Source: Gracilaria domingensis (Eukaryota > Rhodophyta > Florideophyceae > Gracilariales > Gracilariaceae). Taken from it: 30,695 nt of DNA. This document shows positions 7,401 to 30,695 of the stretch, in pieces. The stretch covers positions 1 through 30,695 of the forward strand of contig VCMS01000440.1 in assembly GCA_022539475.1 (NCBI GenBank), in the 5' to 3' direction. A program made the position numbers and the translations under genes. Within the stretch, counting starts at the first letter, position 1. Each line of letters starts with the position of its first letter. Below the pieces are notes generated by a model, which saw only the letters and a program-made list of their open reading frames with translations, did not search any database and was not told the origin of the DNA.

Positions 7401-7429
7401 ATTCAGAGCCGTCACGTCTCTCAGGTTAT

Positions 7430-8931
7430 GGACTGGCAACGTCGGCAGCTTCAACTTTGAATCTCATATTCTTCAATTCTTCTAAACGGCGAATTGGTTC
7501 CCATCCCTTCTTCGGTAGTCGGCCTCTCGTCGTAGTCTGGCACACTCGTCATTGGCCCTGGTCAATGCCTCACGCAATTCATTGATTTGCTGATGACTGA
7601 CTCCAGTAGTACTAGAGATATGGGATAGCTTATTCTGGTAGAGTAACACCTGCTGACGAGATTCTCAGTCTCTCCGAAGTTGTCGTGAAGCTTCTTAGAG
7701 AACTCATGAACAAGCTCGACTTGTGCAGTAACATGGGACATCTCGAGCTCATAGCCATGAGTGGCCTCCAACGTCTCGAGCCTCATTTCCGAATCCTCAG
7801 CCTCACAATCTCTATTTCTTTCGACAAGTTGAGATCTGGTTACATCCTAGCTCTCTGACCTTGTTCTTCTCTGCTTTCAAGTTCCTTTCGGAGAAGCTGA
7901 AGCTCCATATCTCTGTTCCCTGTCAGTTCGACCATCTTCTGTATCATTGCTCGTTGCACTTCAGCTCACATATTTTGCATATGACTGGATATCATAGTAG
8001 TGTTCTTGTCCTGCTTTGACTCTGCTTCGTCTATTCGAGTGTGCAGCTTTGCATCTCCTTCCTACATGGGCTGGTTTAGATTCTCTCCGACCCCTCCAAT
8101 GGATGGCTTCGAGGCCTGAGATGAACGATCTTGCATTGGCACATTCTTAGTAGTAGCGCTAAGCATGCTTAGAGCTTCTTTGAGCTTCTGCTCGTGCTCA
8201 GCAAGGATCGTCTTCACGGCCTCAACAACAGATTCTGAATCTTGTCTTTCTAGAAGCAGAATCTCTTGCTGCTCAAGCCGGTGAGTCTCCGTGAAAATGA
8301 TTCGTAGTTCTTTCCTCGAGATGTCATCGCGAGCTGCAACTAACTCCGGCGTAAACCCGTCCAAACTGCGCTTGCCCACTCTAACATCCTGCCCATCTGT
8401 ACCCATCGCCGTTGCGCCAGATTTAAACGTAGTTGATGTCACTTCTAAGTCTCTAGATGTTAGTGCCTTCGCTAGTTGCTTAAACTTCTCCGGGTCACTG
8501 CCACTGGTTGAAATAGCATTCATGGCAGCTGACCCATCGGCCGAAGGCTTCCCAGATGTATCACCTCTGAAAGCTTCTCCTCGACCGTCACCCTGTTTGC
8601 CAACACTAGTTTCACTCGCCAGTATCCTGTCCTTTCCATCTGTGAACAAATCACCGTAAAACGCCACCGATGTCCCATCAGGATCCTCAATAACACTTGA
8701 ATGAAGTTCCCCATCCGGTGACAATAAGCTCTGTGAAGCAAGTTCAAGGATTTTGTGAGGAGGCCTGACCACTCGAGGTCTGCGACTTCTCGAACTGTGT
8801 ACAGACGCAGACCCACGCCCAACAGCTAGCTCAGTATCACCAGATGGTAGAGCTGATTCCTGCGACCGGGATCCAGATGGATGTAATACTGTGGACTTCG
8901 GACTGAGTCCTCCATCCAATATGTTGAGCAA
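7430..8931 (-). pseudogene. Coiled-coil protein, decayed
   Basis: A 289-codon open stretch (8931-8062) begins with a Ser/Arg-rich low-complexity part (to about residue 90) and ends with an acidic helical part (residues 200-265) containing heptad-like leucines (LEQQEILLLERQ, AEHEQKLKEALSML). The same frame continues as helical coding sequence through in-frame stops at 8062-8064 (TAG), 7966-7968 (TGA) and 7840-7842 (TAA), for example LHTRIDEAESKQDKN and MELQLLRKELESREE. It then changes frame (7786-7562 and beyond), still with coiled-coil character such as QQINELREALTRANDECARL. No conserved domain is recognised. The first ATG is not certain. It sits downstream of the glycosyltransferase remnant on the same strand. 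It could be a retroelement ORF1-type protein or a cellular structural protein. Confidence 0.5.
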
Positions 8932-9306
8932 ACCGAACCCTGATCCTGGCTTTCTTCATCAGAACTTTGCCATACTCAGATTCGTTTCCGGAACAAACCG
9001 GCGGAGGGCTCCATTGTGCTACTCGGCCGTTTTCCATGATCGACCGGCTGGGGAGGCGGTGTTTGGTCGCTGAACTTTTTAATGAGCGTCTCGATTGACG
9101 GTTTCGATTCCAGTCCTCCTTGTCGTACGTATCCTTCCAGTCGGGCATCCAGTACTATCTCAGCGCCACATGTCGATATCGCAATGGCGACGACATCAGA
9201 ATCAGTGTCTCCTTCAATCTGCGACGTTTGTCCCCTGTGCTTTCTAATCCGAATCCCTTGCTTCTTTCGTGTCTTGTGCGCATTGACTGCTGTACGTGCC
9301 CAGCAA

Positions 9307-11305: not shown

Positions 11306-11649
11306 GAGCATTGTGGCGTGCCACACTGCTGAGAACTGAACGACGGGGCGTGAACTGGTGTCCGTGGTAAAGAGAGGTGATATGGAGCAGAGCCCATTAC
11401 ACGAGGGGTGTTTCAAGAAGGCGGAGCATGTTATATACTGATAGGCTGTGGGGTTTCAATGTAGGCCAGACACAGCATGTGACTGGATGACGCACTATAC
11501 GACATCGGCGGTGACGGAAACGGCAACGGCGACACAGGATTGGCCAAGCGCGAGAAAACTTTTGACTATCGGCGTCTCACGTATCCGAATCGCTGTAGCT
11601 CCACAGCAATTTTGTCTCGCATCACTGATGTTTCTCGACTTCGGTTTCT

Positions 11650-12759
11650 TTACCGTATGTTATCTGACTCCATGTGGAGATTCTTCTGTAAATTCACGAT
11701 CGGTGACCCATGTACACTGTTGTCTACATGGCTTGGAATTGTTTCGAATGAGCTTCCGTCGTCCACATCTAATACGAAATTATGCAGCTTGCATGCAACC
11801 ATAATGATAAGCGTAACTTTGTGCAGGGGGTAGCGAATTGCAGACCAAAAGATGCCGAACCGACAGACCAATATACTGAATGCCTGTTCCACCACAGTCC
11901 TACAAGAAGACAAGTATGCATTAAAGGAATCTTCCAACCCACTTAAACCTTTTCCCGGATACGGTGTCAACACTCTGGACTCATTTGAATAAGCTTCATC
12001 AGCAGCAACAACAGCCCAACTAGGGAGCTCGGTCCTTTTAGTAGCTCATACAGTTTTGTAGATGAAAACGCAGTAGAATCGTGTGTTCCCCCAGAATGAG
12101 TTGCAGACACGAAGCAGAACTTGTAGTCGGCCTGCGCTGCAGCTTGAACGCAGACAGCGAAGAACCCTTTTCGATTGAAATACTTCTTAGGATCCTTCAC
12201 ATCGCTTCGTTTTGGCTTCGTTATCTCGATCGCGATTCCATCAAGTGCTGCGAGTATACCATAGATCGGAGATCGGCGCAGCTGACAAAACATATTAGCC
12301 TTTTGCGTGCATTCTGCGTGGGTACGAGGGAAACGAATCTCAGGTAGCAAGGTATCCAATGCACACAATGTTTCCTCAAATATGCTGTATACTGTACGGA
12401 ACCTATTCCATACGGCCACCCTACGTCCAAATAGCTAGCTCCAGCCATAATACGTAGTGTAACAAACAACATTATTTCGACGTTGAGTGCCGTGGAAGCC
12501 TGGGTATGATGTCGCTGTGAGCGTTTTAAAAAAGATCGTAACGTGTCCACCAGGAGACGAAACGTGGTCTCGTCATGCGGTACATGCGGCGAAATTGTTC
12601 CCATGAGATACTTTCCATGTATGCCCAGACGGGACAGTTAAAGATGAGGCGTAAGACCACTGAGGGAACTAAAGAAATGAAATAAACTGCGTCAGCCAGG
12701 TTAAATCTGGAGCTCGTAGGATTCCTCGGACAGTGATCTGAGCTGCTTTTACACAGCAC
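11650..12759 (-). pseudogene. PIF/Harbinger transposase (DDE_Tnp_4), frameshifted
   Basis: Four overlapping minus-strand frames form one transposase: 12759-12526 (N-terminus, EQFRRMYRMTRPRFVSW), 12604-12221 (ALNVEIMLFVTLRIMAGASYLDV, the helix-turn-helix-like block), 12419-11967 (catalytic core) and 11973-11650 (C-terminal core). The catalytic triad of PIF/Harbinger nucleases is visible: D in LAALDGIAIEI, D in GGTHDSTAF, and E in RTVVEQAFSILVCRFGIFW. The Y..K.FF....A..D....F segment and the closing KLHNF block are also present. At least three frameshifts make it inactive as written. Before the last frame, sequence reading WAVVAADEAYSNES shows that coding continues across the junction, so these are indels rather than introns. 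I found no terminal inverted repeats or DNA-binding partner ORF. Confidence 0.85.
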
Positions 12760-13327: not shown

Positions 13328-14989
13328 TTACGGTACAAACGATATGTTGGCCACATTAGCATTCCGGTACAACGATAATGTACCGGTATCAACTCGCATG
13401 AGTCTGGACTCAATTTCTCTGGAGCAAGAGCTGGAGCTCTTCCAGAGGCCGTTCAGATCAGAGCAAACCGTACGTATCATAGCTTCCTGGCATATGTCAA
13501 CCACTGATCTCTTGAAGATGGCATCTCTTACAGCATCCGGCCAGTTGCAAAAAGAATCTCTTGCCTGGATTCTAACCTTCCGGACGACAACCATTCCCTT
13601 TTGCAATCATTTGAAGTTTGTGCTTCTCCCTCGAGTGCTCCAAGCACTTTTAATCTTTTGTATAAACAAGAATCGGCTGCTGCACGAGATGTGTGGCGTT
13701 CGGTGGAAAGTATCGTATTTCGGTGTTGATACGATTCGCAGCTTCAGCAAGATTGGGAGTCAAGTTATGCCGCTACAGTTATCAACAAACAGTACGCGTT
13801 TGCGATCATTCGCCAACCGCTTTATCGCTCTAGGCTCGCCGAGCCATTGGGGCATCACCGTAGTGTCCATCCATCCTTTTGGACCCGTTCGATAAGAAAC
13901 TCCCGGCACGTCGTCCGGAACGCCAAGAATAGGATAAGAACGTGAATCGTTTTTGAACACCATGAAAACGGGCTCTATACGAGCGTTCACTCCACGACTC
14001 AATCGCACAACCATGGTCATTCCTTCGCCTCCGGAAACGACATCTGCATACTTTACTTCCGTTTCTCCGCAAAATCCCAGTGTCCTGCGATTGTCAAAGT
14101 TAATTACGAAGTGAGTTTCATCAGCATTCTCTACTTCCACATCGTCCCAGACTCCACTGCGAAAAGCTCGGCATATTTTCCCCAAATGAATGGCGACCTC
14201 TATGTGTATCTGCTTTGTTTTCGCAGGTGAAAGCATGTGTTTTCCAGTATGTGCGTGACTGACAATGCGATAGCGCTCCATAAATCCCTGTATCCACCTG
14301 CGCGTGATACATTCTGAGAGCAATTTCTTCGATTTGGGGTCAATAACATGCCTGTCATACGGCTTGTCAACACCAGTGTGAATGATAGTAATTGCGAGAG
14401 CTTGAAGGACTTTCCAATTGAATTTGACACCCAGTTTGCGCAGACGATTGAACTCCTCCAGCATCTCGAGGTGCAGAGCATGCACCCAAGCCCGTGGCTT
14501 ACAACCACGGCCCTGTCTGGCCTTCAAGTTTACACGCTTTAGGCCCATGTGCGTGCTACGAGACACTGCTGCGCATAAACGTCTTGTAGCAACAAGTCCA
14601 TCGTCGGATAGATATTCGTTTCGAGTGCGCCATATGCGGCTGGCCTTTTGAAGGTTAGCGTCTTTAGATCCGCGAGAAAGGTCAGGGAACTGAAGAACTG
14701 CTTTGGAGATTATGCGCTTCTGCCCGTTGCAACTGCTTTCTTTGAAGATCCAGGCTGCAATTTTGGCTCTTTCTCCGATAGTAAGAACCCGAATAACTCT
14801 ACGTGTGTCTGTGGTTTGCTTTTTGCGTATCTCATTTTGCTCGATGCGGGCAGAAGATGGTGCAACTACGGGCTGTTGTGAAAGAACATTGGGAACTGTC
14901 GCCGCCAGGGTGACGCTGCGGCGGCGTTGTGCAGCTCTTTGAAAAGCTGCGATAATGGGCGATCCGCTAAGTGGTGCGCTCATGGTCAT
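13328..14989 (-). pseudogene. pogo-like transposase (DDE superfamily), C-terminus frameshifted
   Basis: The 409-codon open frame starts at ATG 14989. Residues about 65-135 hold a basic helix-turn-helix-like region (VIRVLTIGERAKIAAW ... RIWRTRNEYLSDDG). Residues about 165-275 hold a second, CENP-B-like DNA-binding region (PRAWVHALHLEMLEEFNRL ... RWIQGFMERY). The catalytic core begins at about residue 280 with the first Asp in ENADETHFVINFD and continues through GEGMTMVVRLSRG and YRTGPKGWMD to the second Asp in VLFVDNCSG. The frame stops at 13760-13762. Coding resumes one frame over with FPPNATHLVQQP and then back in the first frame with FIQKIKSAW, a TGA at about 13612 and the C-terminal tail (13606-13328). 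Two compensating frameshifts and a stop therefore cut the third catalytic region. The core resembles oomycete-type pogo transposases. Confidence 0.85.
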
Positions 14990-17746: not shown

Positions 17747-18453
17747 GAAATGGGGAGGATTCACAGGATGTCCGAGTCCTGCTCCCTATATTCCTCCCCG
17801 TTTCCCCAGCTTTGAGGTTAGATCACATGAATTTTCGGTGTTCTAGACGTTATTGATGTGGGAAAGAGTTTTTTAAAGATAACTAAACATAAACTATACT
17901 TTATCTAAATGACTTGTTCCTACTACAATACTTATATTGTTCGCCTTTCTGCGGTTCGAATATGCCCTTTTAAAACTTACATCCTTTATCACTAAAAGCT
18001 GACTAAGGTATTGCTGGATAGAAAAGGGTCACGCCATATCATTACGTCTGTGTTCTCGTTTTGCTATTAGGCGCACTAGAACACAATTATCGGACGAAAT
18101 TAGTCAAAAAATCTGCAAAAATTGCGTATAGGGCTATGTGCAAACAATTAATTTCAATTTTTTGTATACTACGCTTTCATGTACTAGGTCTTTTTCTCCA
18201 TTCAATGCAGAACAGTTGACGTACGCCACGATTGCTAGTATATGTTCGCGAAATGAAAGTATCAGACGTATTATTTGTTGCCGTTTGAGGACATCATGTG
18301 ATGTCCACCTGTGCCGCCATATTTACTTTCGCTAATTCTCTACAAATACTCTAGAATAGTCATCATTACTACGACTACCTAGTACAATATTCATCTTATG
18401 GAATCGCGCGCATGCATCTCGCCACCCCCATACCACTTCAAGTTGCATTCTAC
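17747..18453. other. AT-rich intergenic stretch
   Basis: Base composition changes here to clearly AT-rich, with short frames only. An imperfect inverted pair, ggggagga/tcctcccc, lies at about 17753-17802. It separates the older remnants to the left from the ParB/methyltransferase cassette to the right and may contain that cassette's left boundary, which I cannot define. Confidence 0.4.
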
Positions 18454-19281
18454 TTACAAGAGCCCACCGCCACCACCCTCCTCTATCTCCGCATCTGCGA
18501 AAGACAACGGCCCAAACGCTTTCGCCACATCATCGCCCCGTTCCTCCTCCTTTTCCTCTTCCTCCACATCCTCCCAGGTCCACTTCTCCTGATATCCCAC
18601 AACGCTGCTTCCCTTCCACAACGGCTTTGGAACACACCTGAACCCAACCCTAGTCTTCTTCTTTTTCTCCATCTTCTCCTTCTTCTCCTTTCCAACCTTC
18701 GGCCTCACTTCATCCTCCTCTACCTCTAGCTTCCTCGCCACGATTGGCCTCTTTTCCACGTACTTCCTCTTTCGGCCCCTCTTCTTTCCTTCATTACCCG
18801 CAACATTTTCATCCTCACCCAAGCTCTCCGTAGCCGGCACAAAGTTCCTCGCATCCTCATCTGCATCCACACTAGCCCTATCGACCCCGACCCCGACCCC
18901 GACCCCGTTCAAAATCCTCAGCGCAGGAGTCACTGGAGTACCTCGGACTTGACGTACATCCTCCCGCTTCTTACTGAGTTCCTTTAGCTTCCCCTCCAGC
19001 TCCTGCACTCGACCTGTCAACTCTTTTTGTCCATCCTTCAATCCCCTTAGCTCCCTAGCAATAAATTCTGTGACCTTCTTCGTCAGTCGACGCATGTCCT
19101 CACCAATGCGGGTCCCAATCGCCCCTGCGCACCCCAACATAGCCATCGACCACCAGTTCAGCTCATCCTTGTCCTCCCTTTCATTTTCCTCCGCAAAAAT
19201 CCTCTTAATCTTCTTATGCGACCTCTCCTCATCGCTAGGATCCCACGGCCACTTCACGATCGACTGAGACTTGCCGCTCAT
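18454..19281 (-). CDS. Charged coiled-coil protein with nuclear-localisation-like stretches
   Basis: An intact 275-codon frame from ATG 19281. Residues about 15-35 are basic/acidic (DEERSHKKIKRIFAEENE); residues about 45-58 are mildly hydrophobic (WWSMAMLGCAGAIGTRIG). Residues about 60-110 form a coiled coil (MRRLTKKVTEFIARELRGLK, VQELEGKLKELSKKRED). A GVGVGVGV tract at about 125-132 is encoded by cgaccc-type repeats at 18881-18904. KKRGRKRKY and KEKKEKMEKKKK are monopartite nuclear-localisation-like clusters. The C-terminus is acidic and ends in a poly-Gly run. No catalytic domain is recognised. It is one of the few undisrupted genes of the cassette. A plausible role is a DNA- or chromatin-associated accessory protein, by inference from composition and neighbours only. 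Confidence 0.6.
   Translation of the reverse strand: MSGKSQSIVKWPWDPSDEERSHKKIKRIFAEENEREDKDELNWWSMAMLGCAGAIGTRIGEDMRRLTKKVTEFIARELRGLKDGQKELTGRVQELEGKLKELSKKREDVRQVRGTPVTPALRILNGVGVGVGVDRASVDADEDARNFVPATESLGEDENVAGNEGKKRGRKRKYVEKRPIVARKLEVEEDEVRPKVGKEKKEKMEKKKKTRVGFRCVPKPLWKGSSVVGYQEKWTWEDVEEEEKEEERGDDVAKAFGPLSFADAEIEEGGGGGLL
18881..18904 (+). repeat. cgaccc microsatellite in coding sequence
   Basis: Four perfect copies of the hexamer cgaccc encode the alternating Gly-Val tract of the coiled-coil protein on the minus strand; repeat number, and so tract length, is likely to vary. Confidence 0.75.
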
Positions 19282-19816: not shown

Positions 19817-21089
19817 AGAAATGTACCTCATCTCTATAACCATCCGAAGCACCCTTTACTCTCCTTTAGTACGAATTCGAAAACGAAACTGTTCCGCAAT
19901 TGTCTTTCGCAATACACACCAAGTACGGGAAATCCCGCTAAACAATCGACTGCTTTCTCTACGTATCCAGCTGGATGCTTTCCCACATGCAACGTACATC
20001 ACTTTCAACAGTTACAGTACGACCTCGATGCTGAAGAAGCTCACATTCGTCGGGTGCAAACTCTCATCACTCCCGCACTTCAGAATGAGCTCAATGAGCT
20101 CTATGAAATACTACATGACACACCCCGTCACGAAAGTATTCTGGAGCACCCACCCTTTACTCACGCTATTTAAACTCTCCCAGAGCTTTCGAATTATATA
20201 TATCAGTCAAGATTCTACTCTAAAAATCCTCTCAGCATGCTTTCGCCACCTTCAATGGTGTTATTTGCTTCATTGTTAGCGGTAGCAATAGGCGCGCTTT
20301 ACGGTATAATCAAGCCCGTCTTGGCCCAAGCGCTTATATTCATGCGCTTCTCTCGCCATGCTCAGCTAGATTCCACCATTCTCTATAGCATTCTGGAAAC
20401 CATGTTACACATTATTCTCTTTGACCTCGCCTTTTCCCTACATGCCGCAAGATACGGTACCCTAGATCTCGAACCGATGATTCCCTCGCACATGACGAGC
20501 ACCTCCTCCATATTGAGGAATAAAAACTTGGGTATAGAGGTCGGTGGCCTTTTCACTCTCAATCTCTCCATCTTCGTCACCTATCAACTCCGTCCATCCC
20601 CCTCCAATCTTATAGATTCTGTCAGAACAGCTTATATAGCGTTTTTTCCTAGTAGATTTTTTATTCGGCCTATTCACTATCGTCCTGAACGCACTCTCTG
20701 TCTTCTACTCTACAGGCAACACCTTTAACAACATTGTATCGCTCTCGCACCGCGTAGGAACTCGATGGGAAAGGCTCTGTCTCTACATCCGTTGTGTCCT
20801 ACACTCCTTCAAAAAGGCTCTCTTTTTCCATGATGTATTGCTCTCCATCGGAATGTTTTTGAACAGAGTAGTCCCAGTATTCTTTGCCCACACGCTTTCT
20901 GAGTCGCTAGAACCATCAGCCTTTCGTATGTTTAGAGGTATTCCCCCTCTTCTTACAAACACCCTATTCGTTGCACTTCTTGTGTGTGCGGGTATCGTCA
21001 AGCACGAATCACGGGTCAACCTCAAGAGGTACTTGTGTGCACTCGGAGAGCATCCTAGACCCCAGACTCGACATCTATTGGAGAAATAA
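19817..21089 (+). pseudogene. Multi-pass membrane protein of unknown family, broken
   Basis: One frame is open from 19817 to a TAA at 20171-20173 and includes a helical, soluble-looking part (QQLQYDLDAEEAHIRRVQTL, NELNELYEILHD). The same frame continues past the stop (TLPELSNYIYQSRF) and includes ATG 20237, which starts a 163-codon frame with hydrophobic segments at residues about 6-27 (MVLFASLLAVAIGALYGII), 48-66 and 100-115. Removing one base from the T6 run at 20642-20647 joins it to the frame ending at 21089 with further hydrophobic segments (FLVDFLFGLFTIVLNALSV; TNTLFVALLVCAGIV). I infer one protein of about 420 residues with four to five membrane helices near its C-terminal half, interrupted by one stop and one frameshift. 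No family recognised. It converges on the ParB/dioxygenase gene with about 230 bp between the stops. Confidence 0.5.
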
Positions 21090-21322: not shown

Positions 21323-22790
21323 TCAGTTCTCCTCCCCATTTTCTGTCCTTTCCTCCATCCCCTGCGCTTCATAGTTCTCGTCTTCTTCCTCCCTGTCCCC
21401 TTCCTCGACCATCAACTCATCCTCTTCGTCCTCGTCCTCCCCATTCTCCACCAATTCGATGTCCACCGCAGAACCAACTGTGTTGTACTTCATTCCCATG
21501 AGATCGTCTTCTTCCACAAAAGTCGGTAGAAAATGGTGATTCAGAAGAACTGCATCCGGCAAACTGTACTTCTCTGGTACCATATACATATGGTAGCGAA
21601 ACAGTGGGTTCTCCCGAAATCTTCCATCTTTAGTGCCCGCACCGGCATGAAATACATCCCTCCTCCCAATAAATACAGACATAGATGGTACAAAGAACTT
21701 TCTCACAACCATTCCTCGTGCCAACCCTTTAAATGCCTTTGCTGTTACAGCAAAGTGACTGTGAAATCCTTCACATATCCAAAGTGGGAACGACACAGTT
21801 CTGGAGACCATCACAAAGTACCCCTGGTTCTTCCCCTCCAGCTTGTCTTCGTTTGTCAAGGTCTCGAAGTCGGTATATAGTTGCTGTCGCTGGCAAGTCA
21901 CTCCGGTACATAAAATCCTCCCTTCGGTTTTCGGTGCATACATTCTCTCATTCGGTTGCTTGTTGTCTTGTAGCCCCAACGCCGCACATATCTGACCAAG
22001 CTGAGCATCTAACAACGCCCTCTTCTTGAAAAGCAAATGCGTTTCCGCTCTATTCTCCAGCTTGTCCACTATACCCCCTCCTTGTCCTCATATACCTCCC
22101 ATTGTCCGCGTTGATTAAAGAAATCCATGTAGTTCGATTCTTTGGTACCTTGAGGTCTGGGGCTTCTTCGAAACTTTTTTTGAAGAAGGCCAATACCTCG
22201 ACGCTTATAATCCCATCGATGAGCTTGCTAAGACTTTCAGTCATCTTCAAAAGGTCTTTGTCACAAGCAAAGCCTTCCAAAATACAGAAACCTCTCTCCC
22301 GAAGCTCAACCATCTTGTTCACAAAATACATGTACGCGACGGAATCGCTCTTAACTGCCTCTGCCCATAGGGTCCCATTATCAACCTTCCCCTCTCCTAC
22401 CGCCTTGTTGAGAAGCTTCTGACCCTGAGACGCAGCATGCCAAAACACAGCATGATGTACTTCTTTAAAGTCCTTCGGCTCGAGCAAATGGCCTCGGTGC
22501 TCCTTCCGGAGATGTATCGCATCCATCCACGGATATACCGACTTAATCCCATCCACTCCAGCATGCCACTTGGTAGGAACTTTCAACAATTTCAACCACG
22601 AATCCCCCCCCCTCGTAAGGTCCTTCGTCTGCCTTCTTCAGCCCTAGGAGTAGAATTTTCGGGACTCTGTCGTCGTCGAAAGGATCCGTGTCGTCTCCTC
22701 GCGTCTCAACATTTGGCGCTGAATCAGAGTCCGTGTCGCTGCTGAAGGAGATTTGATGAGCTTTGAGGAAGCTTCTGACCCCTTTCCCCC
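21323..22790 (-). pseudogene. 2-oxoglutarate/Fe(II) dioxygenase-like domain, C-terminal part of ParB-type protein
   Basis: Coding sequence runs from about 22790 across a C9 run (22604-22612) and a C5 run (22074-22078); dropping one base at each keeps one frame open. The N-terminal part has PKILLLGLKKADEG, a helical region and RERGFCILEGF, typical of the first strand of double-stranded beta-helix dioxygenases. The C-terminal part (21323-22069) has RQQLYTDF in the place of the HxD iron motif, VSFPLWICEGF, then VFHAGAG (second iron-ligand His, codon 21657-21659) and FRYHMYM (2-oxoglutarate-binding Arg). The first iron-ligand His is a Tyr (TAT, 21875-21877), so this copy should not bind iron normally. 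The tail is highly acidic. By neighbours and fold, an oxidative nucleic-acid or histone demethylase-type activity is possible in intact relatives; substrate unknown. Confidence 0.6.
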
Positions 22791-23879
22791 AAGCTTACGC
22801 AGATGATCGATGACGAATGTTTCATCTTGGGGCACCTCGCTTACTTTCACCTTCTTTTGAGCCCTGGGGTTGTTATCGCTTATCATCTTCCTTCGTCGAC
22901 GACTTCTTCTGGTGCTCCTTCTCAACCCCGTACCACTTGGCTCCACTAAAATCACGTCGCTCACCAATTCCTGAACGTCTTCCTCGGCATTCTTCGCCTT
23001 AACAAGTTTAGAACGCGACGCCCGAGTATCCGGTTTAGTGACTTGGGTCGTAAAAGTGATCGCTTTTCCCCCTTCCGCCGTAGCAGACGGCCCCACAGTC
23101 GAATTTAAATCCATCCCGATGGACTTCTTCAGCTTTTCACGAGCATAAGCCATCCTTCTCGATATCTTTCCGCCCCAAAGCTTCTTTATCGCTGCAGTTT
23201 CCAGGCGTGCGGCCTGTGTCGCATGATACTCACGGAGACTGAGTTTCTCAAACCTAGTGAATTCAATCTGCATCTCGTATACTTCCTTCAGAGAGAGTCT
23301 CTTTCTTTTCGATACTTCAACGGCCAGCTCATTTAAAGACCGGCAGCATATAAAGAAATACTTTCGTATTTCTTCAAAGCGGCCCTTCAGTTTGGACTCT
23401 CGTCTCCTCGCAAAATATGCTGCCAGGGTGTCGAGGGTGAAATCGGTTGTGTCCTCATCCATAGAAAAGAACTCATCACTGGAGATAGATGTAATACCAA
23501 TTTCATTATACTCCCGACACACATTTTCCAAATGCTTCAGCAATCGAAGACTCTTGGCCACCTTCAAACCTATCTCCGCAAATCTCGATAGATGCCTGAT
23601 ATGGTACTGAGCTATGATTCCGCATACAATTAAGGCACCCGCAACAGCGGTTCTTGTCATGTTATTCAACACTTTCTTCTCCTCTTCAACCATCGCGGTT
23701 ATAAAGGATACAATGGAATGAACCTTGTCGGCGAAGTTCATAAGTCGGGCCTGCTTCAGTCCATCGTTCAAAGCATTACCCATGCTCAGAAGCTCCCTCG
23801 TTTTCATCTTTTGTTCATGCTTTCTTCTCCATAAGGAAACGGTAAGTCCTTTACGCAGTTTTCTTATCTTCGCATCCTC
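22644..23879 (-). pseudogene. Helical and basic middle segment of the ParB-type protein
   Basis: The longest open piece here is 387 codons (23807-22644), in the same frame as the ParB-like segment upstream and separated from it only by TAG 23880-23882. Coding continues right after that stop (KIRKLRKGLTVSLWRR), so the ATG at 23807 is probably internal. Content: MNFADKVHSIVSFI and MTRTAVAGALIVCG (helical), several Arg/Lys-rich helices, and a strongly basic nuclear-localisation-like block (LRRSTRRSRRRRK, residues about 299-311). Near 22790 the frame changes: HLRKLGGKG in this frame is followed one base over by the more protein-like AWGKGVRSFLKAHQI and an acidic linker leading into the dioxygenase domain. 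The last 50 residues of the 387-codon frame are therefore probably out of frame. Confidence 0.55.
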
Positions 23880-24566
23880 CTAACATACTTCCTTGAGTGC
23901 AACAATACGATGAGCTCCATCTATGAGGATACAAGTAACTTTCACGCGAATGCCCTCCACCATCTCCTTCTCGGACTTACCAGTGATCAAAATAGCAACA
24001 ATCATCGTTCCAAGGGCCTGAAGAAACCCTTTCCTTCGAATCTCCGCCTTCAGAGCTTCAACATGCTCCCGAACTGTCCCTCTCACAGTTGCGTCCGGGA
24101 TCTCGATTAGGTCGACGTCGACCTTCACAGACTCGTACTCATAATGGTCCAGGGTGAACTTGAGCGACGCGAGACTCATATCCACGTCACTCGAAGGTAA
24201 TTCATCACCTTCGTCGAATAGTTCATTGACGTTTCCAGCCAAGCTCTCCTTCACCAAGACAACGTCATCATCATCCACTTCGTCCACATCCACAACTTCC
24301 ATCCTAGCTCCACTGTGACTCCCAGCCATTGCAATCGCTTCAGCAGTGCTTTTTCTGGACGACCCAGACTGGACATTCATCGCTGGTTGCTTCCGTAATG
24401 CAGAGACGGCACTCTCCGGAGTTGTGGTCAATTGTGCAGTTCCTACCGTTGTACAACCCTGGTCTTGCTTAGATGGAGTTTTAAGCACAGGCTGAGGCGC
24501 TGGGGGCGGTACTTCCTGCCCCCCTTTGTTCTTCTGTTGTTTGCCTGGTGTTTTGGCCTGGGATAC
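23880..24566 (-). pseudogene. ParB-like (ParB/sulfiredoxin superfamily) domain segment
   Basis: The frame is open from the TAA at 24567-24569 to the TAG at 23880-23882. A disordered, acidic part (DVDEVDDDDVVLV, DEGDELPSSDVDMSL) comes first. At the C-terminus is the ParB N-terminal fold: VKVDVDLIEIPDATVR, then EHVEALKAEIRRKGFLQALG, then TCILIDGAHRIVALKEV. These match the family pattern 'I....I.....R....VEEL..SI...G..QP..V' and the closing 'L.DG.HR..AL' loop; in this fold the loop follows the nucleotide-binding region. ParB-family proteins bind DNA and hydrolyse CTP or ATP in bacteria and phages, and occur next to DNA-modification genes. I assign the fold with fair confidence; enzymatic activity is not shown. 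It is same-frame with the segments on both sides. Confidence 0.65.
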
Positions 24567-24629
24567 TTAAGGTGGCAAGTGCTTCCCACTCGGTGTACGC
24601 GGGGGTTTCGGTGTTTCCGGCATACGCAC

Positions 24630-25142
24630 TCATTTCCATCCTGTCGTGGACGTCGCGTTGGTATGCCCTGATTTCTTTCTGGGCATCTGCGGCGTGGTGT
24701 TCTGGACGGTCTCACCTGAAGCCATAAATTTCAAGTCCCAAGCATAGAAACCCATTTTGTTTAAGTCTGCAACGGTCTTCGGAATGGAGTCTTCATCCGT
24801 ACACTTAAAGGGATACCGGTACGGTGTATGGAGCCCCTTCGATACATCAACTCGCCATATACCGACTATATCCTCTCCCGGCTTCCCTTTCAGTGTGTGA
24901 GGATGCATTTCTCTTCGATACTCTTTGCCGTCGCCAGCAGACTCGATGGCTACCACATCAGCCGTGCCAATTGGGACCTTATCCCCTCCATTCCCCGCGA
25001 TCAGAAGAGTCACTTTGTCCCCCGGTGCGGGTTCCTCTTTCCCCGCATTAGAGCTCATACTTGTCTCCGGATTCTGTGCTCCCTGACTACTCTCCTTCCC
25101 TCCTTCTTTTGTCTTCTTCGCACTTCCAAGATGCGGCGCCAT
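24630..25142 (-). pseudogene. N-terminal segment of the ParB-type protein
   Basis: ATG 25142 opens 170 codons to TGA 24630-24632. The start is favoured because a TATA-like TATATAA lies about 70 bp upstream and upstream sequence looks non-coding. Residues 1-40 are Lys/Ser/Gly-rich and disordered (KKTKEGGKESSQ). Residues about 45-150 look globular (DKVTLLIAGNGGDKVPIGTADVV, EDIVGIWRVDVSKGLHTPYRYPF, LNKMGFYAWDLKF) with the feel of a beta-rich reader fold, but no family is recognised. After TGA 24630 and TAA 24567 the same frame enters the ParB segment, so either this is a separate 170-residue protein or, more likely, the N-terminus of one long protein. Confidence 0.5.
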
Positions 25143-25210
25143 GAGGTTTCAAACTTTCCGCGGCTTTCGGGAGCGCCTCATCTGCCGGTTCCTTAATCCT
25201 CTTGGTTCCA

Positions 25211-25217
25211 TTATATA
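25211..25217 (-). promoter_or_regulatory. Possible TATA box of the ParB/dioxygenase gene
   Basis: TATATAA on the minus strand, about 70 bp upstream of ATG 25142. Position and sequence fit a TATA element; there is no other support. Confidence 0.35.
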
Positions 25218-25529
25218 GCGTCTTTGAATTTAGCTTCGTCAAATACCTATAAAAGTTGAATGCAGAACAAAGCGGTAATCGTATAATGCTCTGATTACGT
25301 CAGCAAACGTCGCACCCGCTCGGTTTGAACACGGTAAACGCTTCGCTGTCGGTTGAAGCGTCGCACTGGTTCGTATCGCAGATTTGTAGTGCAGCACGCG
25401 GAAATGCTGGCGTGAACATTCGCATCACTTCGAAAGAGTGGTACAGGCGGTTACGGACGGTGTAGAAGGCTTAGATGCATACCAGACAGCATGATCAACC
25501 CTCACGGTTCTCCCCTGGTACCCTCCTGT
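25218..25529. other. Divergent intergenic region, left part
   Basis: No gene is supported. It lies between the divergent ParB/dioxygenase and methyltransferase genes. A plus-strand TATAAAAG occurs at 25249-25256. Confidence 0.4.
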
Positions 25530-25671
25530 GGTGGCCGGATGTGACGTGTTCAGACCCCGGTCTGGACCGCGGTCAACCGAGTTCATGGCCGAGATCGTAG
25601 CCATGATCTCGGCTATGAACTCGGCTGACCGCGGTCCAGACCGCGGTTTGAACACGTCGCATCCGGCCACC
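25530..25671. repeat. Long near-perfect palindrome, 67-bp arms
   Basis: Left arm 25530-25596 and right arm 25605-25671 are inverted copies with five mismatches, separated by the 8-base spacer gtagccat. The arms begin ggtggccggatg and include a nested palindrome GACCGCGGTC; the GC content is far above the flanks. Four of the five mismatches are transitions. It lies between two divergent genes, so it could be a bidirectional control element, a replication origin, a binding site for the ParB-like protein, or a fold-back MITE inserted there. No target duplication is obvious. Confidence 0.95.
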
Positions 25672-25725
25672 TCGCCACTCTACGGGGGGTGCGAAAGCAG
25701 GTTGTAGGGTACAACATAGAGCTGA

Positions 25726-27065
25726 GTAGAGCTACGCAGAGCACATTGGTCTTTTCACATCGCAGTTTATACGTATCTACACAGAGGCAAGAAGCAATTT
25801 AGGGCGGTGAGTAAAACATCCGGTAAAACATCCGGTGCAGACCCGGGTCCCGTGGATGTCATTGTCATAGACGACACGGATGATGACGACGACGGAGCGC
25901 ATCCTCTTTCTATTGCTCCTGATGGTATTCTTCCACCTCACGACTTTGGCGATGTAAGGACGACGAAGGCTCTCGGTGTGGTCAAAAAGAAAATGGAGCA
26001 ACAGTTCTCTATGGATTGAGTTGGTTATGAAGAGTTAGTGGAGACTCATGGTACACTGTTCCCTTCCGATAATTTCCTAGAGGACATGTTCAACTCGTAC
26101 TCACGGACCCACCTTATGGTATATGTGACAGTGAGCATGATGAGCTTCTCGACGAAGATATGGTTAATACTGCAGAAATGATGGCCTCAATGCCTCGCCC
26201 TGGCGGTCATTTTATAATGTTCTGTACTATCGAACAGTTCGCGGACTGGGAGGAGATTCTACGTGAGCATAAATCGGAGAATGCAGTGGGGAGGCAAAGT
26301 GCTTCGTTCTTAGTCGACCCCGCACCGATGCAATTCATTCGCTCTCGTACGCACACTTTGAAGAAACCCGGAAGGAACACAACATGGTTGTCCTCTGCAA
26401 CCGAGTATGCCGTGCACGGAGTCCAGAATGGAAACGCGTACGAGGAGCATAAGGTAATGGTGAAGTACAAAAATTTCAACTACGCTCCCACGCAGTACCC
26501 CGGGGACTACTCCATTATCGATCAGGTTCCGCATCTGGAGGCTGGTGAACGACTCCGTTGGAGGGTGAAGAAGCGTTCCAAAATACACTTGGTTCAGGTT
26601 CGCCCCGGACACAAACCGAGGGCACTGCTAAAGGAACTCATTGCCAGGTTCTCAAATCCCGCGGACGTTGTGGTTGATCCCTATATTGGAACATTTTCCG
26701 GTGCCTTGGCTTGCATGGACATGGAAGATCCCCGACGCTTTATTGGATGTGAGAGAGATGAGCAGTGCTTCGCTCATGCGGAACACAATGCTGTAGTGAT
26801 GTATGCGAGGAAAGTTTGGGGTAACGAGTTCAACGCAAGAATAACTGTCAGTAATGAGGTCGTTCAGGCCTCGTATTTAGTACAGACAAAGTTCCAAGAA
26901 GGGAAGCAAAGAACCTCGCGTATATGGACCGCAACGAAAGGATTCCCGCCTTACCAATGTTTCCCGTTTCGTATCAATTCCTACATCGCAACTTTTTGCA
27001 GAGAACCGAGTCTCATCGCGCAGCAGAAGGAGAAACCGGTGCACGAGTGGCCTCTGAATCTCTAA
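25726..27065 (+). pseudogene. DNA N6-adenine/N4-cytosine methyltransferase (beta class), broken N-terminus
   Basis: The catalytic part is on the frame ending at TAA 27063-27065. Motif IV DPPYG (codons 26106-26120, as LTDPPYGICD) comes first. A region with MPRPGGHFIMF follows, then KPRALLKELIARFSNPADVVVDPYIGTFSGALA, which combines the conserved KP..L...LI and the SAM-binding motif I (DP.xGTxS), and then FIGCERD..CFAHA. Motif IV before motif I defines the beta class, shared by many restriction-modification and phage enzymes. The product methylates adenine N6 or cytosine N4; which one cannot be told. Upstream coding lies in another frame (25726-26016, acidic DDTDDDDDG leader), with TGA 26017-26019 and a one-base shift just before motif IV. 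No ATG was found for the leader, so the start is unresolved. Confidence 0.75.
25812..25835 (+). repeat. 12-bp tandem duplication
   Basis: taaaacatccgg occurs twice in a row, giving the protein duplication KTSGKTSG in the methyltransferase leader frame. Confidence 0.8.
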
Positions 27066-27080
27066 AGCACATTGGAGACG

Positions 27081-27659
27081 ATGGATGTACAGAGTTTGCT
27101 CGCCGCTGAAGCAGCAGGTTTATCGTTGTACAGGAAGAAATTAAATATCAAACAACTCACAAGTGGAGATGGAGTGTTCAGTAGTAGATCATTCTCGGAA
27201 GGAGAGGTTGTTGGGTACTTCTATGCGACATTGGTATATCATGACATAAGCCGACGCAATGCAAAACAGATGAAATACGGAAGCGGAGTGCTCGGTACCA
27301 CCGTTTCTCGTTTCAATAGGTATTGCAGGGAAGTGAAGCTGAAAGGGCAGATGTACAGCACGCTTCCTCACTATGATTCCGAAATCAATACTGCGACTGC
27401 CTGGGTAGTACCCGCTCCTTTCTGTATAGCGGGCTACATCAATGATGCTTCGTACCGCGATGGGGACGAAGAGAAGGATTTGGCCGAGATGGAGTCTTAC
27501 CAAGGCAGCTTACCAAACGTTATTATTCGACAGCCTTCCGAGCATCAAGCTACCACATGGGGTACACTCACAAGCGATAGACTACTGTTGGTGACGGCTA
27601 CCAGGGATATTCATAAACACGACGACCTGTACGTAGGCTATGGACCGAGCTATCCATGA
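27081..27659 (+). CDS. SET-domain protein (lysine methyltransferase-like)
   Basis: An intact frame starts with ATG 27081. It shows the SET-domain order: GDGVFSSRSFSEGEVVGYFYATLV (the GxG...I..GE.I..Y.G region), a variable insert, CIAGYINDASY (the RFINHSC/N position, here YINDASY without the cysteine), PNVIIR (N-terminal sheet of SET-C) and LLLVTATRDIHKHDDLYVGYG (the I..GEEL..DYG motif, here DDLYVGYG). At 192 residues it is a minimal SET protein, similar in size class to viral and transposon-borne SETs. It begins 15 bp after the stop of the methyltransferase and in the same frame, with readable coding between (STLET), so it was probably the C-terminal domain of a methyltransferase-SET fusion. 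Changes at the NHS and Y positions make activity uncertain. Confidence 0.7.
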   Translation: MDVQSLLAAEAAGLSLYRKKLNIKQLTSGDGVFSSRSFSEGEVVGYFYATLVYHDISRRNAKQMKYGSGVLGTTVSRFNRYCREVKLKGQMYSTLPHYDSEINTATAWVVPAPFCIAGYINDASYRDGDEEKDLAEMESYQGSLPNVIIRQPSEHQATTWGTLTSDRLLLVTATRDIHKHDDLYVGYGPSYP

Positions 27660-28222
27660 GAGAGGTATTTGTAACTCTCCCATGCTTTATAATTTGACGT
27701 AGTACAAACTGTTGTAGTGTATTTCATAACTACTGCGTCATTTATTGAATGCATTCATCATTCCAGTAAACCTATTGTTGCAGGAAACGACAACGTAGCA
27801 CAAGGACACATTGTCGTGCTAAGCAAAGAGCTACTAAGAATACTCCACAGCGGTCAGTGCTACCACCTCAAAACCAACAACTCAGAATTAACACCTTACA
27901 CCCAGAAGATTGGACCAGGGAATAGAGGACCTTCATCATGAAGGGACCCGACAGACGGACCTGGCACATAGAACATAGCCAATGAAAAATACGGCCGTGG
28001 GAAATGTGGAAAATTGGTATGAATGTCTGCCACAGGAATGGACCAGCTCACTCAGGGCTCAAGAACCACTGAAGGTCTCCATCACCTTCTGCAAAGGGTT
28101 CACAAGCTTTCCCCCTTCCGCTTTTTCACCCCACACTACGAGCAGAACTCCAGAAGCTTCCGTTTCTCCACTTTATAATCCGAACATAATCCCTTCCTTT
28201 TCACACGATTCTGAAGCCCAAT
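27660..28222. other. Spacer with one short frame
   Basis: A 74-codon plus-strand frame (27717-27941, GTG first codon, IVAGNDNVAQGHIVVLSKELLRIL) is the only candidate; no domain is seen. The rest should hold the 3' end of the SET gene and the promoter of the basic repeat gene. Confidence 0.35.
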
Positions 28223-29390
28223 ATGGCTTCACAAAAGCACAGCAACGCGGACGACCGGGAGACGAAGGGATCCCAAACACTCCCGCGATATTGTATTGAC
28301 GTTGCTAAGCGCAAGAACCCTCCGCCTGCCACGACCCGAAGAAGTACTCGACGACGAGCTCCCCGTGTCGGGCTTATTGGAAAGAAATCTAGTTCGAAGT
28401 CAGCACTGCGGGCTTCGAAGACAAAACCGAAACCGAAGCTGGGTGTTAGTACGACCACAACAGAAGTGACAGAGAGCGAAGTAGTGTTACCACATCACAG
28501 CTCAATGGAGGGCGGGTTACACGACACATGGCTGCAGAGAAAGTGCCAAAAATAATCGATGATGCGAATGTGGAAGAAAATGGTACAGACAGACGTACGA
28601 GAGCGAAAGGAACACGGACAAGAAATTTGAGAAACAATGTCATCGAAGAAGAGTTGGAGAGACATGAAAAAGCAATCTCACCTGGTAGGACGAGGCGCAT
28701 TACAAAGGATTCCATTCAACCTCTACGTAGTAGGTACGAAGAAGAAGCCGATGATATACAGCCCACTGTACGTGCGCCGGCGACATCGCGAAGGGAGATG
28801 AAAAACCGGGAACGACTCCATTCAAGCCGATCATGATAGTGACGAGGAAGAAAGTCGATGTAATATGCAGTCCTCTGGAACGTCACCCGCACCGTCGAGG
28901 AAGAATTTCCGGAATGGGAACGATTCCATTCATCCCGAACGTCGTACGAACGAGGAAGAAGTCTACGAGATAGAGCCTGCTCTTCGTACGGTCGTACCAT
29001 CGCAGAATAGGTTCAACCAAATGAGATGGAAGGGTTAGACCTCGATTTCCTTTGCCGAGATGCGTAGGGAACGGACAGAGGTGGGGTCAGACTTACCAAA
29101 AGAGACATGGAACGAAAGGGGTCGTAATGTGGCAGGTCGCCGGAAAATTAAACGTACGCTTCCATCTCGTGCTCTTGCTGGTGTTAGACGAAGAAGTGGA
29201 AGAGGATGAAGCCTAACGCCACTCTACGAGCTGTGGACAGATCGAGACCTTGAAAAGCGGTCTCTTTCCGATAAATGAGATAATCGAAGTCTGAAGATGA
29301 CCGTAAGAATAGCACAGAAAAAGCGTGACGAACTAGAGGGAAGGTGAAGGAGCAAGATGTTTAATAAACCACTTTCGAAGGGACACTGAA
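28223..29390 (+). pseudogene. Basic repeat protein, broken
   Basis: ATG 28223 (atATGGC) starts a basic Thr/Arg/Lys/Pro-rich segment (TTRRSTRRRAPRVGLIGKKS, KTKPKPKLG) resembling AT-hook or nuclear-localisation-like tails. At about 28540 the reading passes to the next frame (KIIDDANVEENGTDRRTRAKG), and from about 28805 (A5 run) returns to the first. Between 28690 and 29015 lie three repeats of about 105 bp encoding '.DSI.P.R.R..EE....I.P..R....SR'. Further readable sequence with TAG and TGA stops (WNERGRNVAGRRKIKRTLPS, LYELWTDRDLEKRSL, KKRDELEGR) runs to about 29390. Stops fit C-to-T changes. A DNA- or chromatin-binding role is suggested only by charge. Confidence 0.4.
28690..29015 (+). repeat. 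Three protein-coding repeats of about 105 bp
   Basis: Units near 28694-28800, 28801-28908 and 28909-29014 share gga(t/a)cgatTCCATTCAt/aCC, then an acidic gaagaagaa block, then c(c)aTCGcg/TCGagg. They encode about 35-residue units with a central EEE. Confidence 0.65.
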
Positions 29391-29724
29391 GCGAGAGCAA
29401 CACGGAGGAGCATGATTCGCACAGAGGAAGAAAAGATACGAATTGATTGAACGACCGTATGTAGGGTAAGCGAAACAGATTTTACGAGCCATACTGGGAT
29501 ACCGAAAAGACGAGACAAGGGGAATTGTGCTTCGAGATGGAGTCACCGGCGAGAAAACTGGTGAGAATCGAAGGTGAGACACTCGGACCTGAGACAGTTA
29601 GCAGTGTCTGGTCGTTGATGGAAAGAAGTTTCACGCTGTCAATGGAGGTACCGCGATGAATGAGAGCGTAACTCATCGATTACGTTACGTCATAACTTGC
29701 TGATGCAAATCGTGGAACGAGGTA
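29391..29724. other. Decayed coding, not assigned
   Basis: Short plus-strand pieces such as RKLVRIEGETLGPETVSSVW look protein-like but cannot be joined into a gene without guessing. The minus-strand frames here are shadows. Confidence 0.3.
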
Positions 29725-30264
29725 ATGAAACGCTGCGTTGGTATCCATCTGGGAAATGAAAGAAGAATAGACTGCATTGACAGCGGAACCAGCACATTTG
29801 CTACGGGAAAGTTGAGCATCTTGAGCGATGCGTGGGATTGGAAAACGCCATGCGAAAGAGAAGTTGTTGATGAGCAGGGTTATGACTTGTTGTGGAGAAC
29901 AACATCTCTGCTAGGAGAGGAGCATATACCTAAACCACGGAGGAACTACGGAGAAGCTTCTGCCGCTAGATTGCAGAAAGGGTGAGATTCTCTCCACATG
30001 GAGAACATCCAAAATATGAGAACATATCATTTTCCGGTTCAAAATGCTGTGCGAGACAGAACAACCGCAAGACTTGCAGTTAGAAACGTTCTAAGCGCTA
30101 CAGTCTTTACGGGGAGTTCTGCTCTTACGAGTGAGACCAAAATGATTCGAGAAGCAATTGCGGAGACAAGGACCCAGGATGACAACAATAGTGGCAAAGT
30201 TGAGCCGTCTAGACGCCTTGATCCGCCAGTTTTCGAGCTGCAGAGTCGAAGGAGGCTGGAGTAA
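29725..30264 (+). pseudogene. Unidentified protein remnant
   Basis: One plus-strand frame covers 29725-30264 with a single TGA at 29983-29985. The first part (TFATGKLSILSDAWDWKTPCE, REVVDEQGYDLLWRTTSLLGEEHIP) has a protein-like distribution of aromatic and acidic residues. The second part (RTTARLAVRNVLSATVF) is more basic. No family recognised. Its strand and position make it a further gene of the cassette; it may continue past the window edge through the broken frames to 30695. Confidence 0.3.
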
Positions 30265-30695
30265 AAAGCAGGTTTGTTCTTCCAACCTTTTAGGAAGATA
30301 TGTTTGCACAGGCGGTGGAAAGTATACGATGCTGCACGAATGAAAATGAGCAGAAGTTGGAACGGAGTTCAGGAACGGCTCAATGGCTCAAGATCCAGCC
30401 CAATAGAGTACCATGACCCCTTAGGAAACTCGTCGGCATACTGCGATTGACGGCGTCTAGAAGAAAGCTATATCTAGCTGTTCGAGAACATGTAATTCAT
30501 GGAAATATTACGCAAGAACATCTTGGAGCCGTATTGGATTAGCTCTATATGGTTTGTGACCCACGATCGCGTAAAACTCTCGCTATAAGAGCAATCTATG
30601 AATCCGAGATGATAATTGACCGATTGTAATCGAATGTCTCGCGAACAAAGTGAGGAAAACGAGAGGGGGAGTGGTAGACGTGAGCACAGATGAAA
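30265..30695. other. Window edge, no supported gene
   Basis: Short frames only; possible continuation of the preceding decayed coding. The right boundary of the cassette is not inside the window. Confidence 0.35.

Follow-up and report, generated by a model that had tools for sequence, protein, structure and literature searches.

We analyzed a 30,695-base stretch of the red alga Gracilaria domingensis (contig VCMS01000440.1, here C440; hereafter the window), from an assembly of 77.9 Mb in 680 contigs. Our preferred explanation, which we hold as probable, is that this region belongs to a decayed giant DNA transposon, ~20 kb long in the copy that could be measured, which encodes a Plavaka transposase and whose two divergent accessory genes form one epigenetic module. 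The first gene fuses a DNA methyltransferase to a SET domain (MTase-SET), and the second fuses a ParB-like domain to a 2-oxoglutarate (2OG)/Fe(II) dioxygenase (ParB-2OG); the spacer between them holds a long palindrome. An initial annotation, made from the window alone, had placed the four domains in two divergent coding regions and treated them as a gene quartet. The divergent layout stands, but the open frames of better preserved copies, which fall into subfamilies A, B, and C, are those of two fusion genes instead of four separate ones. The features of the module in the window are as follows:

21323 to 25148, minus strand: ParB-2OG fusion gene, decayed (found in two frames by tblastn; a single open frame of 1326–1327 amino acids (aa) in the copies on contigs C61 and C140).
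21488 to 22400, minus strand: 2-oxoglutarate/Fe(II) dioxygenase domain, start approximate (fold matches and motif conservation).
23883 to 24239, minus strand: ParB/sulfiredoxin-like domain with a DGAHR motif (profile matches and motif).
25524 to 25677, no strand: long imperfect palindrome, candidate binding site (CCGCGG-centred dyads; equivalents in B- and C-type copies).
25801 to 27671, plus strand: MTase-SET fusion gene, decayed (tblastn with the A-type protein from C157).
26073 to 27062, plus strand: beta-class amino-methyltransferase domain, TDPPYG ... DPYIGTFSG (Pfam N6_N4_Mtase, 2.9e-14).
27066 to 27656, plus strand: SET domain (Pfam SET, 1.1e-4; 23 bits, just over the gathering score of 22.4).

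MTase-SET is a single open frame in the better copies on C12 (1118 aa), C157 (1121 aa), and C597 (1055 aa). In the window, ~454 N-terminal residues are absent, and the frame is interrupted by a stop near 26017, a frameshift near 26082, and a stop at 27063. The SET domain of the C12 copy scores 28.4 bits with Pfam. Database searches returned 20 relatives (E from 1.3e-147 to 1.2e-44), metagenomes included; a precomputed N6_N4_Mtase domain is present in all 20 and SET also in 10, and SET-like sequence after the methyltransferase is visible by alignment in several of the other relatives. In our alignment (A1; 19 of the 20 relatives, P0025 being left out), all 22 methyltransferase rows keep DPP[YF] as well as the motif I residues D and G, and a C-terminal DYG-like motif of SET is common, though not universal. 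Motif IV (DPPY/SPPY) precedes motif I, which, together with the Pfam N6_N4_Mtase match, is the arrangement of beta-class enzymes acting on adenine N6 or cytosine N4. Among solved structures, the nearest are those of adenine methyltransferases such as DpnA, CcrM, and MboIIA, and a cytosine-N4 methyltransferase ranks well below them; methylation is thus predicted to fall more likely on adenine N6 than on cytosine N4. The best PHROG match of this domain is phrog_67 (5.1e-24), composed of bacteriophage DNA methyltransferases from viruses of prokaryotes, and its likeness to the window is confined to the methyltransferase domain, as it is for the 15 phage-record matches listed of 45. Note that in one relative, P0020, a FILDGAHR stretch with a weak ParB match (0.014) lies before the methyltransferase, so that a single protein may at times combine the ParB-like part with MTase-SET. 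At C564:19563-23417 (L022), judged by eye, a C-type methyltransferase frame runs stop-free into an apparent pogo/Tigger-type transposase, with SET interrupted (1285 aa).

ParB-2OG is open over 1327 aa in C61 and 1326 aa in C140, and frameshifted in the C12 copy. The window copy contains in-frame stops at 24632-24630, 24569-24567, 23882-23880, 22646-22644, and 22640-22638, and a frameshift near 22070. A protein search with most of the fusion found no relatives, and one with a narrower region found 10, again with metagenomes included. For the ParB-like domain, two PHROG ParB profiles match part of the 11 domain sequences, phrog_1033 five of them (best 0.0022) and phrog_3264 three (best 8.1e-5), and the motif DGxHR is present in 10 of the 11. 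The top two of four matches in a PDB profile search, sulfiredoxin (0.23) and SbnI (0.86), are not significant; both are proteins of the ParB/Srx fold. Pfam gave neither a ParB nor a 2OG match for this gene. The 2OG domain is recognized by matches to double-stranded beta-helix folds and by an HxD...H...R pattern, of which HxD and the distal His are kept in 11 of 11 aligned sequences. In the window, HxD reads YTD, so that the metal-binding His is lost, and the distal His and the Arg are kept; a single-sequence structure model of this piece was uninformative (predicted local distance difference test score, pLDDT, of 34). No TET/JBP protein is among the 50 fold matches listed for the dioxygenase, which does not tell against TET/JBP. 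The dioxygenase is a possible eraser of marks, with many substrates conceivable. All four domain assignments of the initial annotation thus hold, methyltransferase and SET by Pfam, 2OG by fold, and ParB least strongly. SUMO-interacting motifs noticed by eye in both fusion proteins were dropped, being close to the level of shuffled sequence (6/22 versus a mean of 5.2, and 5/12 versus 3.5).

Where neighbors were found, the two genes and the transposase keep one arrangement. SET lies directly downstream of the methyltransferase in 86 of 96 cases. ParB is upstream of and divergent from the methyltransferase in 56 of the same 96, and each of the three other arrangements occurs in none. Downstream of ParB, 2OG was found in 63 of 88 cases, never on the opposite strand; for 28 of 97 SET matches, the transposase is downstream and convergent, with zero in each of the three other arrangements. 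The rows used (96 of 125 for methyltransferase, 76 of 149 for 2OG, 88 of at least 159 for ParB, 97 of 150 for SET, and 42 of 50 for transposase) were picked by hand with no fixed cut-off. C-type rows were left out, as were additional fragments where a copy was represented already; in the case of ParB and SET, so were some short partial rows of A and B type. As genome searches, in addition, score the best candidates only, the orientation bias is the result, and missing neighbors tell little. A comparison of gene order among genome copies had been proposed as a check on the gene grouping, and the order is always the same where neighbors were found. Outside this genome, the metagenome pairs P0007/P0027 and P0010/P0033 (MTase-SET and ParB-2OG relatives) have matching longest contigs of 20,528 and 25,405 bases, respectively, which suggests that each pair lies on one contig.

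The carrier is best seen in the B-type copy on C12. Beyond gene C and convergent with MTase-SET, it contains a transposase frame of 1110 codons (1,072 from the first ATG), matched by Pfam PF18759 (Plavaka) over residues 283-536 at 5.9e-24 and 85.3 bits, against a cut-off of 26.3. A PCHRC (C2C) motif is visible, the family motifs being C(2)C and H(3-4)H between the second D and the last E. Searching the genome with this transposase gave 50 matches, 11 of which besides the query are full length (1,072 residues) at ≥97% identity, and DNA probes showed the left part to be common to some 38 places at 97–100% identity. On the right, similarity ends no more than 7 bp from C12:85355 in 34 of the 40 copies scored; of the other six, three (query included) run on and three stop earlier. 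Terminal inverted repeats CGTCTGTGTT...AACACAGACG, with 15 identical bases, were identified from inverted copies of CGTCTGTGTT at C12:65379 and C12:85355, which set the length between them at 19,977 bp, the left border being taken from the repeats and not from the pile-up of copies. CGTCTGTGTT is also found at two A-type ends, C157:109351 and window position 18045, which agree over 22 bases; the first 10 bases at 18045 are common to both ends of the C12 copy. Sequence common to the regions near the left ends of C12 and C157 had been considered as the terminus and was rejected once these repeats were found. Between its termini, the C12 element encodes the transposase, gene C, MTase-SET, ParB-2OG, a membrane-like gene, and a small coiled-coil-like gene. 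The termini read CGTCTG..CAGACG in place of the TGT..ACA or CATCA..TGATG of fungal PlavakaA/PlavakaB, and because of this difference we file the element in neither fungal sublineage. The transposase and the terminal inverted repeats bear out the idea of a mobile carrier in the initial annotation and specify a transposon.

The same 10-base terminus starts insertions at C231:73432 (L010) and C266:89980 (L020), inside A- and B-type copies: at the former, similarity to other A copies ends within 4 bases of 73432, and at the latter, the SET frame breaks at 89980. An open reading frame (ORF) situated about 2.4 kb inside the C266 end encodes a Myb DNA-binding domain (Pfam 1.1e-6) and is a putative member of that element. 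A 10-base terminus-like match at window position 82 (minus strand) may be due to chance. At C12:85355, C233, and C299, a common junction joins the B-type right end directly to sequence shared with C-type loci.

The divergent spacer is the third component of the proposed module. In the window, its palindrome (25524-25677) has 75-bp arms with 10 mismatches and a 4-bp loop; folded as single-stranded DNA it has a z-score of -16.1, and 0 of 200 shuffles fold as well. Arms measure 38–91 bp in six A-type sequences (window and C110 being the same sequence), 48–81 bp in B-type spacers, and 55–78 bp in C-type spacers. Five B-type palindromes have a perfect inner part of 38–43 bp per arm; in one, with 53-bp arms and 7 mismatches, only the inner 38 are perfect. 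A scan of 28 sequences gave 20 palindromes whose arms reach 38 bp or more; 18 of these sit in the spacer, and the one on C264 lies upstream of MTase-SET with no adjacent ParB gene. As a control, palindromes with 14-bp arms are present in 3 of 30 shuffles. Searching 291,476 bases for a 26-base core (≤4 mismatches) gave 32 occurrences, all of them in the spacer, spread over 12 of 30 sequences and in A and B types only. CCGCGG is found at 2.24, 3.21, and 6.51 per kb in A, B, and C spacers versus 0.063, 0.045, and 0.172 in the rest of the same 14 loci, an enrichment of about 36-, 71-, and 38-fold, respectively; these are plain rates in spacers of G+C 0.53–0.60 with borders set generously from open frames. 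The flanks of CCGCGG differ for each subfamily and are mostly still symmetric: the A dyad GACCGCGGTC is present in 16 of 25 A sites, the B dyad GAACCGCGGTTC in 15 of 18 B sites, and the C dyad GCCCGCGGGC in all 15 C sites. The spacer palindrome is thus a candidate binding site, with a structural role possible; symmetric change in both half-sites would fit a dimeric binder co-evolving with the site.

A purely structural origin, in which the palindromes have nothing to do with the ParB-like protein and either form a nested foldback element or serve replication or recombination, is the strongest competitor and a possible one, though we think it the less likely. The arms are far longer than an ordinary operator, their single-strand folding is extreme, and the C157 element has the two remaining long palindromes near its left end. 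Set against this, all three subfamilies have palindromes upstream of MTase-SET with subfamily-specific dyads, and the 26-base core is restricted to that spacer.

In the C-type palindromes at C564:18488-19248 (L022), GTTAGGGTA/TACCCTAAC are telomere-repeat-like. Given the Myb ORF close to a related terminus, the resemblance may not be a coincidence.

Taking these parts together, and arguing from sequence, we consider it most likely that the chromatin of the transposon is marked, and the marks adjusted, by the transposon itself, against host silencing. The ParB-like part of ParB-2OG, perhaps with gene C, would recognize the CCGCGG palindromes in the divergent promoter. MTase-SET would methylate adenine in the element DNA as well as lysines on nearby protein, probably histones, and the dioxygenase would trim or remove such marks, giving a self-contained balance that could keep the element genes expressed despite host silencing. 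Palindromes specific to each subfamily would direct the module to elements of the same kind. Only tentatively do we extend this to a parS-like addressing system, which we rather doubt in its full form: subfamily dyads (GACCGCGGTC, GAACCGCGGTTC, GCCCGCGGGC) at a central hub would be read by a co-evolving ParB-like protein that recruits the writer of N6-methyladenine and lysine marks and the eraser, and the element would thereby set up and sustain, over its entire length, a private epigenome separating self from host and from sister subfamilies.

Several observations weigh against this proposal. The ParB assignment is weak by profile. Canonical partition ParB, a clamp that hydrolyzes cytidine triphosphate (CTP), has a GERR-type CTP-binding motif; the ParB-like domain has DGxHR there instead, which points away from a canonical partition ParB and toward a ParB/Srx relative that binds nucleotides. 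SET domains usually have an NHS motif and a catalytic Tyr, and here the NHS position reads IND. The structure model of the 2OG domain is of low confidence with low template modeling (TM) scores, and Leu occupies the 2OG-binding Arg position in both fetched intact B-type frames (C61/L036 and C140/L037). The A-type spacers L009 and L025 have no palindrome above 17 and 15 bp, respectively, and those of L014 and L015 (A) and L024 (B) reach only 22–24 bp arms. Finally, the ratio of protein-changing to silent divergence (dN/dS) is near neutral within subfamilies, at 0.67–0.99 for MTase-SET (five A pairs and one B pair) and 1.0 for ParB-2OG between C61 and C140.

The targets could also be different. 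The dioxygenase and SET might act on element or host proteins such as the transposase or silencing factors, not on chromatin, with the methyltransferase alone acting on DNA. SET enzymes also methylate non-histone proteins, and the listed fold neighbors of the dioxygenase are mostly small-molecule enzymes, but these domains are fused to a DNA methyltransferase and a ParB-like domain, and we regard this version as rather improbable but still a serious contender. Somewhat less probable, and likewise a serious contender, is self-limitation, in which the module would repress its own promoters via repressive methylation at the central palindromes and so hold the element at a tolerable copy number. 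DNA-binding repressors commonly use dyads, and the palindromes lie in the module's own promoter region, like autoregulatory operators; near-identical B-type copies, however, show a recent burst, and no result here separates activation from repression.

A function of the cargo for the element is itself consistent with how the copies diverge. For MTase-SET, A (C157) and B (C12) differ by dN 0.26 and dS 2.8, a ratio of ~0.09; by part, the ratio is 0.12 for the N-terminal part and 0.13 for SET, and the methyltransferase part is saturated at silent sites with dN 0.19. ParB-2OG of C61 compared with the decayed window copy gives 0.18 for the ParB part and 0.09 for the 2OG part. One C pair of MTase-SET gives 0.33, and for two pairs with a C-type copy the ratio is not computable, silent sites being saturated. 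Note that these ratios are soft because dS is near saturation. As A and B differ far less at protein-changing than at silent sites, the cargo was under past selection; the pattern is the one expected of genes whose function is preserved along the lineage of the element, individual insertions being free to drift. That the captured genes are hitch-hikers without element function, or host genes under duplication, would fit the near-neutral decay of single copies, many of them broken; we nevertheless judge it very unlikely given A versus B ratios of 0.09–0.18 wherever computable and catalytic residues kept in distant relatives. An endogenous virus (giant-virus or polinton-like) is the reading we credit least, to the point of near dismissal: a ~20-kb, multi-gene element with methyltransferase and ParB-like genes does recall phages and large viruses, but the Plavaka transposase lies within terminal inverted repeats, the at least 37 confirmed loci of a viral-contig scan all match only residues 489-786, the methyltransferase region before the SET part, and capsid and polymerase are absent among the few Pfam matches, in a search that covered part of the element.

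The remaining features of the element in the window are:

18045 to 18066, no strand: A-type element terminus with terminal repeat CGTCTGTGTTCTCGTTTTGCTA (the A-type copy on C157 has the same 22 bases at its opposite terminus, C157:109351).
18454 to 19281, minus strand: 275-aa ORF of unknown function, element gene (68% homologous DNA inside the B-type element at C12:84149-84918, before the terminus C12:85355).
20072 to 21080, plus strand: remnant of an element gene for a hydrophobic (membrane-like) protein of unknown function (68% identical to C12:82300-83304 in the B-type element).
28223 to 30304, plus strand: remnant of element gene C, coiled-coil-like and of unknown function (tblastn with gene C of C399, 31% identity over 28940-30304).
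30305 to 30695, no strand: contig end inside the element (C110 has a frame like the transposase C-terminus at 166763-167338).

The start of the gene C remnant is that of an ORF at 28223 similar to A-type gene C frames; accuracy is low in this contig tail. Besides being decayed, the window copy is truncated by the contig end, and no transposase gene of this element was found within the window, whose contig stops inside the element. From 21609 to about 28500, window and C110 are base-for-base identical, and the tail from 28500 to 30695 differs by 166 gap columns and 42 mismatches; based on this identity followed by a divergent tail, C440 is probably a redundant contig with an inaccurate end.

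The C12 element has a different repeat on either flank. Two repeats are shared by C12 and the window. The first (window 11327-12540, C12:64163-65378; 96.5% identical) is Harbinger-like in the window (DDE_Tnp_4, 6.1e-10) and adjoins the B-type left end on C12; the second (window 7015-9091, C12:59907-61992; 95% identical) contains in the window a 289-aa ORF of unknown function. A 409-aa ORF at 13760-14989, with weak matches to DDE_1 (0.0025) and a Tc5 DNA-binding domain (0.039), is perhaps a second, unrelated transposase in the window.

ParB-methyltransferase proteins in giant algal transposons are already in print. The Ectocarpus giant transposon Sola1-1_Ec32 (21.5 kb) encodes a 1104-aa ParB-methyltransferase protein, and its authors suggest that it binds and modifies its own sequence (PMC12477816). 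It resembles the present element in size, in combining a ParB-like domain with a methyltransferase of the N4-cytosine/N6-adenine type, and in the transcription of these opposite to the transposase; it differs in transposase superfamily and in having ParB and methyltransferase on one protein, and the accessible text of that paper mentions no SET, 2OG, or palindromic spacer. The same source cites giant EnSpm elements of red algae with multiple accessory genes and ParB/methyltransferase-like proteins (Petroll et al, 2025, Current Biology, as cited in PMC12477816), and Plavaka transposases resemble the EnSpm superfamily (PMC12730594). Through that citing paper, these elements appear like ours in their multiple accessory genes and related superfamily, and parts of the present element may already have been described among them (Petroll et al, 2025).

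For the other domains, fungal DNA transposons, Plavaka included, carry a TET/JBP dioxygenase thought to counter silencing (PMC12730594). A Plavaka transposase with a captured 2OG dioxygenase is common to them and to our element, but theirs is of TET/JBP type with termini TGT..ACA or CATCA..TGATG, and what is available of that article mentions no methyltransferase cargo, SET fusion, or ParB. In Phytophthora, transposons of the HarbingerS and MuDR groups carry SET genes (cited in PMC12730594), a transposon-borne SET as here, with other transposases and, in that account, no mention of a DNA methyltransferase fusion. The giant Plavaka repeats of Amoebidium comprise genes clustered in tandem over as much as 50 kb, tyrosine recombinases among them, some genes having red-algal matches (PMC11244446); they are likewise Plavaka-flanked and multi-gene, and the part of the report at hand mentions no such module. 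Within the open-licence literature, the exact gene set was not found described, and the combination of MTase-SET and ParB-2OG in one Plavaka element, together with a subfamily-specific palindromic spacer, appears to be new within the literature reached.

As far as the available parts of these sources go, each of the cited transposons carries a single enzyme of this kind, be it a SET protein, a TET/JBP dioxygenase, or a ParB-methyltransferase (PMC12730594, PMC12477816). Here, the MTase-SET fusion and the fusion of a ParB-like domain to a candidate eraser share a promoter region, and in it lies a candidate site that is strongly structured and differs by subfamily. If the spacer site is indeed the module's address, the transposon would be a selfish element whose epigenetic control is both targeted and reversible, and would parallel, in nature, the epigenome editors made by engineering. 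The element also provides a concrete test of whether eukaryotic DNA adenine methylation stems in part from mobile elements.

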